Notes under the pieces: generated by a model
Databases searched by the model: none
What the model saw: the letters and a program-made list of their open reading frames with translations, nothing else
Told to the model about the DNA's origin: nothing
In this document: piece after piece, positions 30,729 through 39,121 of the stretch
How positions within the stretch are numbered: the first letter of the stretch is position 1
How the letters are laid out: the number at the start of each line of letters is the position of its first letter
Origin: an uncultured Opitutia bacterium
GTDB taxonomy: Bacteria; Verrucomicrobiota; Verrucomicrobiia; Opitutales; UBA953
NCBI GenBank assembly: GCA_903855995.1
Contig: CAIOAN010000003.1
Span: 62,001-126,000 of the forward strand
Direction: 5' to 3'
DNA: 64,000 nucleotides
Position numbers and translations under genes: made by a program

Positions 30729-30824
30729 ACGGGGTCAGGCCGCTTCTCGTTTAGCGTGAGACTAAATTCGGCAAGAACACGCGATTTAAGTCACACTACC
30801 AAGGAGGGAGCGGCCTGACCCCGT
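30729..30824. repeat. GGGGTCAGGCCG inverted-repeat element, copy 1
   Basis: A perfect 16-bp terminal inverted repeat, ACGGGGTCAGGCCGCT at the left and its complement at the right, encloses about 64 bases without an open frame. The same ends occur at 33554-33643, 35120-35215 and 37821-37916. They resemble REP-like elements mobilised by single-strand transposases, but no transposase is in the window. GTGTTCGGCC motifs follow. Confidence 0.85.
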
Positions 30825-35119: not shown

Positions 35120-35215
35120 ACGGGGTCAGGCCGTTACTCGAGCTAGGCTGATACTAAACACGAAGGATCAGGGCGCTTTTGGTATCAGGAAACTTTGGTA
35201 ACGGCCTGACCCCGT
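35120..35215. repeat. GGGGTCAGGCCG inverted-repeat element, copy 3
   Basis: Eighteen-base perfect terminal repeats (ACGGGGTCAGGCCGTTAC and its complement) and an inner repeat CTGATAC / GTATCAG. In copies 2 and 4 the inner stem is CTGAACC / GGTTCAG, so inner stem bases co-vary between copies. It truncates the gene fragment to its left. Confidence 0.85.
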
Positions 35216-35402: not shown

Positions 35403-37124
35403 TCACTTCCCGGCCTTCTTCGCCGCTATCTTCGCTTCGATCTCTTTCTGGAGCTCCATCGCACGTTTCTGGCCACGCAGCACGTCATCCTGGGACATTC
35501 TCTTCTCCAGCATGCCGCGTTTATTTCGGGCATCCTCGTCCGTGCTGCTAGCCAGGTTGAAATAAGCATAGGCTTCGACGTAATCTTTCTCCACCCCTAA
35601 GCCTTTAAAGTAACAAACTGCCAGATTGGATTGGGCCTGGGCATCGCCTTGATCAGCGGCCTTGCGCCACCACTTCACTGCTTCGACGTAATCCTTCGTC
35701 ACGCCTATGCCGTCGAAGTAGGAATTGCCCACATTGAATTGGGCAGAGGCATCGCCTTGGTCAGCGACCTTACGAAACCACTTCACCGCCTCGACCATGT
35801 CCTGCGCCACGCCACGTCCGATGGAGTAGGAATCGCCTAAGTTGGATTGGGCAGAGGGGTCTCCTTGATCAGCGGCCTTGCGCCACCACTTCACCGCTTC
35901 GACGTAATCCTTCGTCACGCCTATGCCGTTGAAGTAGGAATTGCCCACATTGAATTGGGCAGAGGCATCGCCTTGGTCAGCGGCCTTGCGATACCACTTC
36001 ACAGCCTCGGGCAGCTCCTTGCCCACGCCCGTGCCGTTGGCGTAGCATTTACCAAGGTTGGATTGGGCAGTCGCATGGCCTTGTTCAGCTGCCTTGCGCC
36101 ACCACGCGAACGCTTGAGGCAAGTCCTTGGCCACTCCAACTCCGCTGTTATAACAGATGCCAAGGACATACTGTGCCTCCGCCCAGCCTTGCTCAGCTGA
36201 CTTGAGAATCCAACCTAATGCTTGAGGCACATCCTTAGCTACGCCTTGGCCGTGGAATAACATATTACCCAAGTTGTATGCGCCCTCCGGACTGCCGAGT
36301 TCAGCGGCCTTACGAAAACACTGCACGGCCTCGGCCTCATCCTTCGGCACCCCGTTACCATTCAAATAGAAACGCCCAAGATTACAGTGGGCCTCGACAT
36401 CCCCTCGGTCAGCGGCCTTGCGCGTCCACTTCACGGCCTCGACCTCATCCTTCGCCACACCTTCGCCGGTGGCGTAGCAATAGCCCAGATTCCTTTGTGC
36501 TTCCGGATCTCCTTGTTTGGCAGCTTTCAGTAGCCAGCTGACACCTTGTACGGGATCTATGGGGATGCCCCAGCCCTTGATGTAACAAGCACCGAGCATA
36601 CCCTGACCGCGGCTGTCGCCTTGGTCGGCCGCTTTGCGAAACCAGACCACTGCCTGTGCCGCGCCTTTCGGCAGGCTTAGATCATCCATCTTGAAAAACT
36701 TTCCGACGATGGCGGGATTCTGCTCCAACAACAAATCCATGCCGAGATTTACTTGGGCCTTAGCCAAGCCCTGCTCGGCGGCCTTGCGAGTCCACTTCGC
36801 ACCTTCAGTCATATCTTGAGGCACGCCGAGCCCCATCGTATAATGCACCCCGAGAGCGTTCTGGGCCAAAGCATTGCCTTGTAAGGCGGACCGCCGGCAC
36901 CAGCCCGCAGCTTGGACGAAATCAGCCGAGACTCCTTTGCCTTCACGGAAACAAATCGACAGGTCCAACTGAGCGACCGCATCCCCCGTCTCCGCCTTTG
37001 CCTTATAGCCCTCAAACACCTTCACCTCCTCCGGGGTCATCCCGGCGAAGGCCTGCATCGGCAGCAGCGCCAGCAGGCCGACGGTTGCGACGATCAACCA
37101 AAAGCCCGGGGTACGCGGTTTCAT
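35403..37124 (-). CDS. Secreted Sel1-repeat (TPR-like) protein
   Basis: A 573-residue protein with signal peptide (MKPRTPGFWLIVATVGLLAL..AFA) and about a dozen 36-residue Sel1 repeats with the consensus A.AQ.NLG..Y..G.GV.KD..EAVKW.RKAADQGD. A Lys/Ala-rich C-terminal helix follows. Sel1 arrays are protein-protein scaffolds. Two pairs of repeats in the C-terminal half are almost identical at DNA level with a 216-base offset (around 35656 and 35872), a recent in-frame duplication. ATG 37124 is preferred over a TTG three codons upstream. Its upstream region is shared with the GYF_2 gene. Confidence 0.9.
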   Translation of the reverse strand: MKPRTPGFWLIVATVGLLALLPMQAFAGMTPEEVKVFEGYKAKAETGDAVAQLDLSICFREGKGVSADFVQAAGWCRRSALQGNALAQNALGVHYTMGLGVPQDMTEGAKWTRKAAEQGLAKAQVNLGMDLLLEQNPAIVGKFFKMDDLSLPKGAAQAVVWFRKAADQGDSRGQGMLGACYIKGWGIPIDPVQGVSWLLKAAKQGDPEAQRNLGYCYATGEGVAKDEVEAVKWTRKAADRGDVEAHCNLGRFYLNGNGVPKDEAEAVQCFRKAAELGSPEGAYNLGNMLFHGQGVAKDVPQALGWILKSAEQGWAEAQYVLGICYNSGVGVAKDLPQAFAWWRKAAEQGHATAQSNLGKCYANGTGVGKELPEAVKWYRKAADQGDASAQFNVGNSYFNGIGVTKDYVEAVKWWRKAADQGDPSAQSNLGDSYSIGRGVAQDMVEAVKWFRKVADQGDASAQFNVGNSYFDGIGVTKDYVEAVKWWRKAADQGDAQAQSNLAVCYFKGLGVEKDYVEAYAYFNLASSTDEDARNKRGMLEKRMSQDDVLRGQKRAMELQKEIEAKIAAKKAGK

Positions 37125-37132
37125 AAGAGACA

Positions 37133-37181
37133 ACTATAACACGATTCCCGTGGCAGCGAGCATCGTTAATCCTGATGCGGG
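37133..37181 (-). promoter_or_regulatory. Shared upstream module with extended -10 (Sel1 gene)
   Basis: These 49 bases match 37700-37748 at all but a few positions. On the minus strand they end in TGTTATAGT, an extended -10 (TGn-TATAGT), with the ATG only about 9 bases beyond it. Transcription would then start at or next to the start codon, giving a leaderless mRNA. Confidence 0.6.
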
Positions 37182-37229
37182 GTATCGGGGGGCTGCCCTC
37201 GTTAGTTCAATGGGACAAGCCTGGCGGGT

Positions 37230-37691
37230 CTACTTCCCTCTCTTGGACGAAGCCCACACAGTGCAGATCACGAGCCCGACGGGGTAAAATATGACGGAAA
37301 AAAAGAGGCAACCAATCCCCCAGCCGCCGGCGTTCCCTTGTTCCGGGGAGAGAAAAAGGGACAGAACTTTGATCACAGCCGACGTAGCAATTACCGCCAA
37401 GAAAGCATAACACACGGTGTATGTGGCGAGCATACTGAGGATACCCAGACAGGATGACCCCTCCGCTTTTTCCGCTGCGTTGTCGGCTTGTTTTTGTTGC
37501 TTTGTAGATTCCTCGTCGAGCGATTCTTCGTCCCTTAATAATTGCCACTCGGGCGACCCTTCATGCCCAGAGTAGAGTTGGTCAGTCGGGAGGATTTTTC
37601 CATCCGCCCAGAGCTTGCTTACCTCTTGGGTGGTATAAACTCCGACTTCTTTCCCGTCGCGGCAGATTTTAATGAGCGGAGTACTATCCAT
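37230..37691 (-). CDS. GYF_2-domain membrane protein
   Basis: A 153-residue protein whose first 55 residues resemble the GYF_2 domain (IKICRDGKEVGVYTTQEVSKLWADGKILPTDQLY, then a W..L ending), a small proline-peptide-binding-like module common in bacterial membrane proteins. A Glu/Lys/Gln-rich linker follows, then two transmembrane helices (about 85-110 and 122-145) and a short basic tail. Function unknown. ATG 37691 is 8 bases after a TATAGT, in an upstream block shared with the Sel1 gene, so the two genes may be co-regulated although each has its own promoter copy. Confidence 0.75.
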   Translation of the reverse strand: MDSTPLIKICRDGKEVGVYTTQEVSKLWADGKILPTDQLYSGHEGSPEWQLLRDEESLDEESTKQQKQADNAAEKAEGSSCLGILSMLATYTVCYAFLAVIATSAVIKVLSLFLSPEQGNAGGWGIGCLFFSVIFYPVGLVICTVWASSKRGK

Positions 37692-37699
37692 CGCATAGG

Positions 37700-37748
37700 A
37701 CTATAACACGTTTCCCGTGCGAGCGAGCATCGTTAATCCTGATGTGGG
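37700..37748 (-). promoter_or_regulatory. Shared upstream module with extended -10 (GYF_2 gene)
   Basis: Second copy of the module at 37133-37181, with the same TGTTATAGT immediately before the gene and the same GATTAACGATGCTCGCT core upstream. The repeat element copies at 37758 onward begin just outside it. Confidence 0.6.
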
Positions 37749-37755
37749 GGGGCCG

Positions 37756-37916
37756 AACACGGGGTCAGGCCGTTACTCGAGCTAGGCTGATACTAAACAC
37801 GAAGGTTCAGGGGGCCGAACACGGGGTCAGGCCGTACCCTGGCTGTGCCTGAACCGAAAACTAAACATTTAATGCTTCTTTTGGTTCAGCTCCTCAAAGG
37901 TACGGCCTGACCCCGT
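37756..37916. repeat. GGGGTCAGGCCG elements: truncated copy plus complete copy 4
   Basis: A left-end fragment (37756-37810), nearly identical to the first half of copy 3, breaks off at GAAGGTTCAG. It is followed at once by a complete element (37821-37916) with perfect 18-bp ends ACGGGGTCAGGCCGTACC and its complement. The order suggests insertion of one element into another with loss of the distal half. The region 37692-37939 has no gene. Confidence 0.85.
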
Positions 37917-37939
37917 GCTTAGGGCGTGCTTTCCTGCCT

Positions 37940-39121
37940 TCAAATCCGGATGAAGACCTTCCGCTTCCAGAGCCACCAGCAGAAGGTCCAGAGGACGGCG
38001 AGGACGAGGAGGCTTTGCATGAGGGGGCCGTACGTGCCTTCGAAGAGGCCGTTGCCGAGCCAGGTCTTGCCGATGCTTCGAATCCAGCCGGCGGTGAGCT
38101 GGTAGGCGAGGTAGATGGCGATGGAGTTCATGCCGACGACGACGAGCGGGAAGGTCCACGCTTTGTGGCCCTTGATGTCGATGAACCAGTAGAAGAGCGC
38201 GAAGACCCAGAGGACGACGGCGCCGCTGTAAAAGGCCCACGAAGGGGTCCAGAGCTTCTTGATGACGGGGCAGATCGTGGTGCCGGTAACGAGCGCGAGG
38301 ATGAGGCAGAGCGCGCCTGCAATCAGAAGCCAGTTCAGTTTAGCCCCGGAGGTCTTTTCGGAGCGCAGGTTCTCGCCGGCCATGAGCCCGAGAATCATGG
38401 TGATGAGCGAGGGCACGAAGTTGAGGGTCTGGTAGCCGCCTTTGTCGAAGACGAAAGGGGTCTCGCGCAGGAAGAGGTTCAGGAACCATTGGTCGCAGGT
38501 GGCCGCGAAGTTGGCGTTCATGTTCCAGTGCCCCCAGAAGCCGCTGAGGACCTGGCCGGGGTCGGTCACGCCGAGGGCTTTGTAATCGGTGGCTGGCCCG
38601 GCGATGGGGGTGAGCGCGAACGCGGCCCAGGTGGCGACGGCGATGACGCCGATGGCGCCGAGCTGTACCTTCCAGCCCCGCCCGACGAGCAGGGTGAGGA
38701 AGACGTACCCGAGCCCGATCTGGGCGAGGACGTTGTGGAAGCCGAAGACGGGCTGCTTGCCGGTACCGGTGGTCAGGAAGACGCCGAGGGCGACGAGCAC
38801 AAACGCACGCCAGAAGGTGTGCAGAAAAAGCTTCCGCTGGTCCTGGCCTTCGGCGGAGCGGCGCGACGACGAGAACGGCAACGCCATGCCGACCATGAAC
38901 ATGAACGAGGGCTGGATCATATCCCACGCCCCGCCGCCGATCCACGCGGCATGCGAGGTGTTGTAACGCAGCAGCTCCCAGAAGCCCGAATCCGGATGCG
39001 CCTTCGCGATCTGCGCGATGCCGAAGCCCGACGACGCCATGAACAGCATCGTGAGGCCGCGGAAGGCATCCAGTGAGACCAAGCGTTCGGGTAGGGTCGT
39101 GGAGCCAGAGGGGGTGCTCAT
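37940..39121 (-). CDS. NagX-like/DUF5009 membrane acyltransferase
   Basis: A 393-residue polytopic membrane protein starting MSTPSGSTTLPERLVSLDAFRGLTM. The RLVSLDAFRGLTM motif and the following helices with SFMFMVGMALPFS belong to the heparan-alpha-glucosaminide N-acetyltransferase-like (NagX/DUF5009) family, which transfers acetyl groups to amino sugars across the membrane. About ten transmembrane segments are visible. A longer open frame exists upstream but is built from repeat sequence (TTGCCC..GCCCCCT module), so ATG 39121 is preferred. A 7-bp hairpin (39123-39139) lies directly upstream of the ATG. The acceptor sugar is unknown. Confidence 0.85.
   Translation of the reverse strand: MSTPSGSTTLPERLVSLDAFRGLTMLFMASSGFGIAQIAKAHPDSGFWELLRYNTSHAAWIGGGAWDMIQPSFMFMVGMALPFSSSRRSAEGQDQRKLFLHTFWRAFVLVALGVFLTTGTGKQPVFGFHNVLAQIGLGYVFLTLLVGRGWKVQLGAIGVIAVATWAAFALTPIAGPATDYKALGVTDPGQVLSGFWGHWNMNANFAATCDQWFLNLFLRETPFVFDKGGYQTLNFVPSLITMILGLMAGENLRSEKTSGAKLNWLLIAGALCLILALVTGTTICPVIKKLWTPSWAFYSGAVVLWVFALFYWFIDIKGHKAWTFPLVVVGMNSIAIYLAYQLTAGWIRSIGKTWLGNGLFEGTYGPLMQSLLVLAVLWTFCWWLWKRKVFIRI

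Follow-up and report, generated by a model that had tools for sequence, protein, structure and literature searches.

A putative activator-dependent promoter module heads apparently leaderless, exchanged gene units in a genus of Opitutales

We assign a probability of about 0.7 to the reading that a module found upstream of two unrelated genes in the window (the whole 64,000-nucleotide stretch analyzed here, from an uncultured Opitutia bacterium) is an activator-dependent, σ70-type promoter of a conserved regulon, that its targets would be leaderless, and that units of promoter and gene have been exchanged between species.

Results and Discussion

Two unrelated genes of the window share an upstream module

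Self-comparison of the window reveals a direct repeat of 50 nt (37133–37182 and 37700–37749; 92% identity, spacing 567), in keeping with an earlier note on this DNA that had described near-identical modules of about 49 bp upstream of two unrelated genes. Modules and genes all lie on the minus strand. On that strand, TGTTATAGT forms the 3′ end of both copies and is separated from an ATG by 8 nt, which bears out the extended −10 that the note had placed 8–9 bases before each start codon. The 17-mer GATTAACGATGCTCGCT occurs twice without mismatch in the window, where 0.07 matches would be expected if up to three mismatches are allowed, and at least two matches were obtained in 1 of 100 shuffled windows; together with the further copies described below, this rules out a chance origin. 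The features are as follows, with E-values from R1, a 59-position model built from 35 sites.

35403–37124, minus strand: Sel1-repeat protein, 573 aa from its ATG (37124–37122), predicted to be leaderless
37133–37186, minus strand: full Sel1 promoter module (R1 match, E = 8.0e-17), with GATA at 37183–37186, CATCAG at 37172–37177, core GATTAACGATGCTCGCT at 37155–37171 and extended −10 TGTTATAGT at 37133–37141; variable spacer between core and −10
37230–37691, minus strand: 153-aa protein with a weak GYF_2-like N terminus (ATG at 37691–37689), predicted to be leaderless
37700–37744, minus strand: module of the GYF_2-like gene (R1 match, E = 3.2e-13, model positions 11–59 only), with CATCAG at 37739–37744, core at 37722–37738 and −10 TGTTATAGT at 37700–37708; GATA absent
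37748–37917, no strand assigned: REP-like palindromic repeats (GGGGTCAGGCCGT), adjoining the GYF_2 module at its would-be GATA end

The Sel1 assignment is certain, with 12 Sel1 stretches (E = 2.3e-130), and the signal-like N terminus of this protein is near-identical in paralogues that have the same module upstream. The name GYF_2, which the earlier note had given to the other gene, did not hold up equally well, as the only Pfam match is sub-threshold (E = 0.024; 14.9 bits vs a cut-off of 25.8). At the Sel1 copy, the GATA part makes the site about 4 nt longer upstream than the repeat. The GYF_2 copy is without this part and is adjoined there by a GGGGGCCGAACACGGGGTCAGGCCGT repeat; the relative G032 keeps the GATA.

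A separate repeat, GGGGTCAGGCC, has eight copies in the window (0.09 expected), several of them in inverted pairs, at 30731–30822, 33553, 35122–35213 and 37761–37914. One copy adjoins the GYF_2 module at the would-be GATA end, and the folding of 37745–37920 is much better than that of shuffled sequences (z −4.9). These copies look like a REP-type repeat family.

Conserved elements and a leaderless-type layout

The full site, of about 54 bp, comprises GATA-N5-YATCAG, GATTAACGATGCTCGCT, a 12-nt variable spacer and the extended −10 TGTTATAGT. The consensus of the collected sites is GATA, N5, (C/T)ATCAG, GATTA(A/T)CGATGC(A/T)CGCT, the 12-nt variable spacer and TGTTATA(G/A)T, this last being the dominant form among them, with TGn directly 5′ of a TATAAT-like hexamer. 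The GATA-N5-(C/T)ATCAG block emerged upstream of the searched pattern once sites had been collected; the earlier note had overlooked this upstream half.

Of 49 sites, the 45 that are distinct fall into nine gene classes, giving 36 class pairs for block-wise comparison; the classes were set by simple sequence rules, with the last taking all sites that the other rules missed. Between classes, mean identity was 0.72 for the GATA block, 0.81 for the core and 0.83 for the −10, where the conservation of the core and −10 is partly circular because their columns served to find the sites; the GATA block and the gap before the ATG lie outside the site-finding patterns. The other blocks were much less alike: the upstream flank had a mean identity of 0.26–0.34, the spacer 0.34, the gap 0.27 and the ORF 0.28. 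Conserved elements combined with a free spacer point to constrained binding elements rather than to recent copying.

The −10 stands 6–8 nt before the start codon in 44 of the 45 distinct sites (8 nt in 32, 7 nt in eight and 6 nt in four), so that the mRNAs of these genes should be leaderless, and the layout that the earlier note had deduced from two genes extends in silico to the genus. The remaining site, with a gap of 2 nt (L070:3830), belongs by sequence to a small membrane protein gene, whose start lies about 100 nt further downstream in relatives. Leaderlessness is not common to every member, as leaders of 70–140 nt are present at some sites (acpP, an aspartyl-protease-like gene and others) and CarF genes start 10–20 nt beyond the −10 region. 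Nor is the layout a general habit of the window's genome, where TATAAT-N6-8-ATG is rare (12 occurrences vs 5 for a reversed control). A canonical σ70 scan of 36900–38000 returned no promoter-like site, and neither window module has a TTGACA-like −35 at 16–18 nt; an extended −10 does not strictly need a −35.

Distribution within the genus

A search for further copies, which the earlier note had proposed, finds four strong copies in the window's genome, none with an E-value above 1.6e-8; a fifth match spans just 14 nt and is attributable to chance. Two of the four are on contig C9, one before a 50-aa lipoprotein-like ORF and the other before a Sel1 paralogue whose N terminus is nearly the same as that of the window Sel1 protein. 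Copies with three mismatches also occur at C12:168407 and C13:161076. A fixed-spacing pattern with up to three mismatches is present in 14 of the 55 genomes of the genus, vs none for the reversed control pattern, and a shorter pattern in 16 of 79 family genomes, all within the window's genus. The R1 model matches 33 of the 79 family genomes, namely 33 of 55 in the window's genus (g1) and 0 of 24 in the other four genera. An R1 match is absent in 22 of the 55, a figure to be read with the genomes being mostly fragmented assemblies, which makes absences and some breakpoints soft. Going by record titles like LacPavin, the genus appears to be one of lake bacteria.

With the module in 33 of 55 genomes, its elements kept and its spacers diverged, the co-regulation of unrelated genes that the earlier note had suggested is probable, and its refuting case, that the module is found only as a by-product of duplication, is contradicted.

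An exact degenerate pattern matched 16 stretches of the genome_contigs collection, whose titles name an Opitutae, Verrucomicrobia or Verrucomicrobiota bacterium in all but two cases, one Opitutus sp. and one Akkermansia muciniphila. The last of these titles, borne by a module-carrying record (CALQLO010000001.1, L099), is probably a mislabel. Contig C1 of G044 is 98% identical over 9 kb to G032, which is titled Opitutae. Viral contigs gave no match with either the strict or the relaxed pattern, and phage origin is out on that account. Rfam on six module loci returned two tRNAs only, which speaks against a structured RNA at these loci, and tRNAs lie near the module in 7 of 26 sources, so a tRNA-linked island is not a general explanation.

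A wider site family at CarF, DUF2339 and rhombotarget lipoprotein genes

The earlier note was right about the two window genes but overlooked a wider family of sites. Over 273 genomes of the order, R1 matched 13, three of them outside the genus. Two of these three matches precede rhombotarget-type lipoprotein genes in a second family (f14, genus g51); the third (G108) extends over only half of the model, lacks a −10 and is probably a chance match. R2, a broader model, was built from 30 sites, including two from f14 that are thus in the training set. At E 0.02, it matched 84 of 372 genomes of the order: 34 in the genus, 31 in f14 and 19 elsewhere. Among the matches listed, 24 f14 genomes vs 2 elsewhere outside g1 reach E < 1e-3, and the 19 genomes outside both groups have E-values of 6.5e-4 or worse, a level that chance could nearly account for, given how rough the E-values are.

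In f14, a related core, TATCAG-nTTTATCGATTAACGCC, stands before CarF-type lipid desaturase, DUF2339 and rhombotarget lipoprotein genes. Genes downstream of the 23 inspected f14 sites encode CarF-like desaturases, rhombotarget lipoproteins, LplT-like transporters, a DUF2339 protein and others. Family scans, which covered representatives only, placed the rhombotarget model TIGR04179 above its cut-off and the LplT-like match below; the CarF-like genes fall below the cut-off of the CarF equivalog model and above that of Pfam Lipid_desat. A related core in a second family of the order makes it likely that one conserved putative activator stands behind the sites of both families.

The f14-type site is also found in the window's genome, before its own CarF-type gene (contig C11), and a DUF2339 gene is preceded by a site both in that genome (L134) and in f14 (L236), so that CarF-type desaturase and DUF2339 are the target families common to g1 and f14. 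CarF-type genes were found in 21 of 79 family genomes, all in the window's genus, and TATC(G/A)ATTAACG lies upstream of the CarF gene in 16 of 16 parsed loci; the ten unparsed loci of the 26 fetched are, by listing, mostly lower-identity paralogues or fragments. A null distribution drawn from loci that themselves carry sites plays no part in this comparison. In some genomes nearly free of the module (G019, G001, G007 and G041), the CarF site is the one that remains. At least three R1 sites are present in 13 of 21 genomes with CarF vs 5 of 34 without (Fisher p = 8e-4, a value that ignores kinship and completeness). Taken together, the shared CarF and DUF2339 sites and the CarF-only genomes suggest that the module arose by modification and multiplication of an older site serving a membrane and lipid regulon.

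Apparent exchange of promoter-headed units between species

The unit bounded by the GYF_2 module and its next neighbour has a counterpart in G032 that is 97.6% identical, with both ends inside modules and unrelated flanks. The Sel1 unit is 95.3% identical to G023, whose contig ends inside the gene, and the C9 unit is 96.4% identical to G040. For the core reference, the fabF-side DNA by acpP, the corresponding values are 84% (G032), 84% (G023) and 80% (G040). By these identities, gene units headed by the promoter appear to have moved between species. The "mobile or duplicated" promoter of the earlier note therefore stands in part: what passes between species is mostly promoter and gene together, and the module is not just a by-product of duplication.

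Breakpoints were located in 22 cross-genome unit pairs (at least 88% identity and at least 60 nt of upstream room), whose memberships overlap and which are thus not independent. In 11 of these pairs, homology ends within −5 to +10 nt of GATA, and in 2 it stops within the module or shortly downstream of it; no pair has its break 11–60 nt upstream, and in 9 homology extends beyond 60 nt. L069 shares 98% identity with L076 and L081 in the upstream DNA; the break falls inside the module and different genes lie behind it. A near-same promoter precedes a 39-aa ORF in G002 and CarF in G041, and module plus gene is arrayed head to tail in tandem at L083 and L067. The route of exchange would most simply be homologous recombination at the repeated modules.

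Proposed mechanism and alternatives

Two observations fit an activator regulon: the upstream element is conserved and sits at a fixed distance before unrelated genes while the spacer is free to vary, and the same target families (CarF-type and DUF2339) retain the site in distant relatives, in g1 and f14. What we observe is the sequence pattern, how it is conserved and distributed, and where homology breaks off; from this we infer activator binding, the start site, leaderless translation and the recombination route. A putative DNA-binding activator would bind GATA-N5-YATC(A/G)G-n-TTWWCGAT, with a predicted contact stretch of GATA-N5-YATC plus TTATCGAT, and would stand in for the normal −35 box, its own box being centered about 40–50 bp upstream of the expected start. 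RNA polymerase would be recruited to the extended −10 (TGnTATnnT), 12–14 nt downstream of the core, and transcription would start at the ATG or within about 2 nt of it, giving leaderless mRNAs. The older targets may be the membrane and lipid genes (CarF-type desaturase, DUF2339 and rhombotarget lipoprotein), from which the promoter would have spread, in the genus, to accessory secreted or membrane genes (Sel1, DUF805, GYF_2-like and small lipoproteins). Each accessory gene would be carried as a unit of promoter plus ORF, and such units could be swapped between species, most simply through homologous recombination at the modules. Among the genes inspected behind sites, no obvious regulator gene was seen.

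We consider it rather unlikely that the upstream block is instead the −35 element of an alternative sigma factor, with the whole module as its promoter. The match is very long for a promoter and its spacing rigid, the f14 version has TTMACG about 18–19 nt before TAnnnT, and the canonical σ70 scan sees no promoter here. However, the −10 (TGnTATnnT or TAnnnT) resembles a housekeeping −10 with extended TG, conservation reaches about 20 nt beyond the normal −35 position, and the inverted GATA-N5-TATC suits a dimeric activator better.

That a mobile gene cassette ends at the module, which would be conserved for site-specific recombination or transposition and only incidentally a promoter, seems unlikely to us, despite the sharp breaks at GATA in moved units, the head-to-tail arrays at L083 and L067, the different genes behind the same upstream DNA (L069 vs L076 and L081), the near-same promoter before CarF in G041 and the 39-aa ORF in G002, and the weak acpP module lying in about 190 extra bp beside repeated CTATCTGA. 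The same edges are expected from homologous recombination between dispersed modules, a consistent 3′ end was not found, targets at conserved positions in distant relatives (DUF2339 and CarF) need no cassette, and tRNAs are near only some clusters. Recent local duplication leaving two functionless, similar upstream regions would account for window copies 92% identical and 567 bp apart, but copies stand before unrelated genes in many genomes, their spacers have diverged from one another around retained elements, and the same site type occurs at CarF across families; the distribution and block-wise identity contradict such a by-product, which we regard as highly improbable. A more tentative and, on balance, doubtful proposal joins two roles, with the module as both regulon promoter and exchange junction of a promoter-headed gene-cassette system. 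If true, the genus would share a pool of leaderless surface-protein units behind near-identical promoters, and a newly acquired ORF would come immediately under the same membrane-related control.

Relation to known systems

The preferred reading, an activator-dependent promoter, recalls class II σ70 promoters, in which the activator box overlaps the −35 region and a good −10 accompanies a poor −35. The module shares this arrangement, but its box is unusually long, the start codon is at the expected start and the activator is putative. Putative mobile promoters (Matus-Garcia, Nijveen and van Passel 2012) are reportedly similar promoters before non-homologous genes in one genome. As there, a near-identical promoter precedes non-homologous genes (92% for the window pair, four strong copies), but here divergence has affected the spacers and spared the binding elements, the site type is retained at the same gene families across two bacterial families, and transfer usually takes promoter plus gene. 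Integron gene cassettes are likewise arrays of single-gene units exchanged between species; here, in contrast, each unit has its own promoter at the 5′ end.

Passages of PMC3160421 describe TA-led leaderless bacterial genes, with a −10-like TANNNT about 10–12 bp before the start codon and no Shine-Dalgarno. The module genes also have a −10-like signal close before the start codon, but they form a small regulon marked by a long common upstream element, and the layout is no genome-wide habit. In Myxococcus, according to PMC9131029, the CarF/PEDS1 photo-oxidative stress circuit runs via an ECF sigma factor and an anti-sigma factor. A CarF-type desaturase is the best conserved target in our case, whereas no ECF sigma or anti-sigma is linked to the site. 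A search of open-licence papers found no description of the motif or of such a regulon in Verrucomicrobia. If our reading is right, a conserved promoter class and regulon are outlined for a bacterial order, CarF-type lipid genes are linked with a group of surface proteins whose mRNAs appear to be leaderless, and species exchange of genes behind a common promoter gains a concrete case, which makes testable the immediate wiring of horizontally acquired single genes into an existing regulon.

Genes behind the module

The nine gene classes behind the module are mostly secreted or membrane proteins. Pfam identifies Sel1, DUF805 and DUF805-Sel1 fusions among them, and the rest are small lipoprotein-like or membrane proteins without a family. 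The weaker sites, with leaders of 70–140 nt, precede acpP, aspartyl-protease-like, small membrane protein and zinc-ribbon CAAX-protease-like genes. The small membrane protein gene is present in 6 of 55 genomes, all six of which have at least three R1 sites.

Some individual loci deserve mention. At L132:5133–5618 (contig C12 of G000), a strong module precedes an apparently frameshifted DUF805 gene. A conserved ORF of 38–39 aa lies behind a CarF-type promoter with a leaderless-type layout in G017, G002 and G022 (L148, L149 and L127). At L074:345–425 in G032, the upstream half of the module shows a 22-bp partial tandem duplication. At the acpP locus (L152, L156 and L160), about 190 extra bp with a weak module lie between fabG and acpP, beside repeated CTATCTGA. 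The repeats suggest a mobile insert, but deletion between them is equally possible, so they are not proof of one. This extra DNA is present in G000, G044, G006, G037, G040 and G023 and absent from G020, G017, G036, G019, G054, G015, G008, G007 and the outgroup G074.
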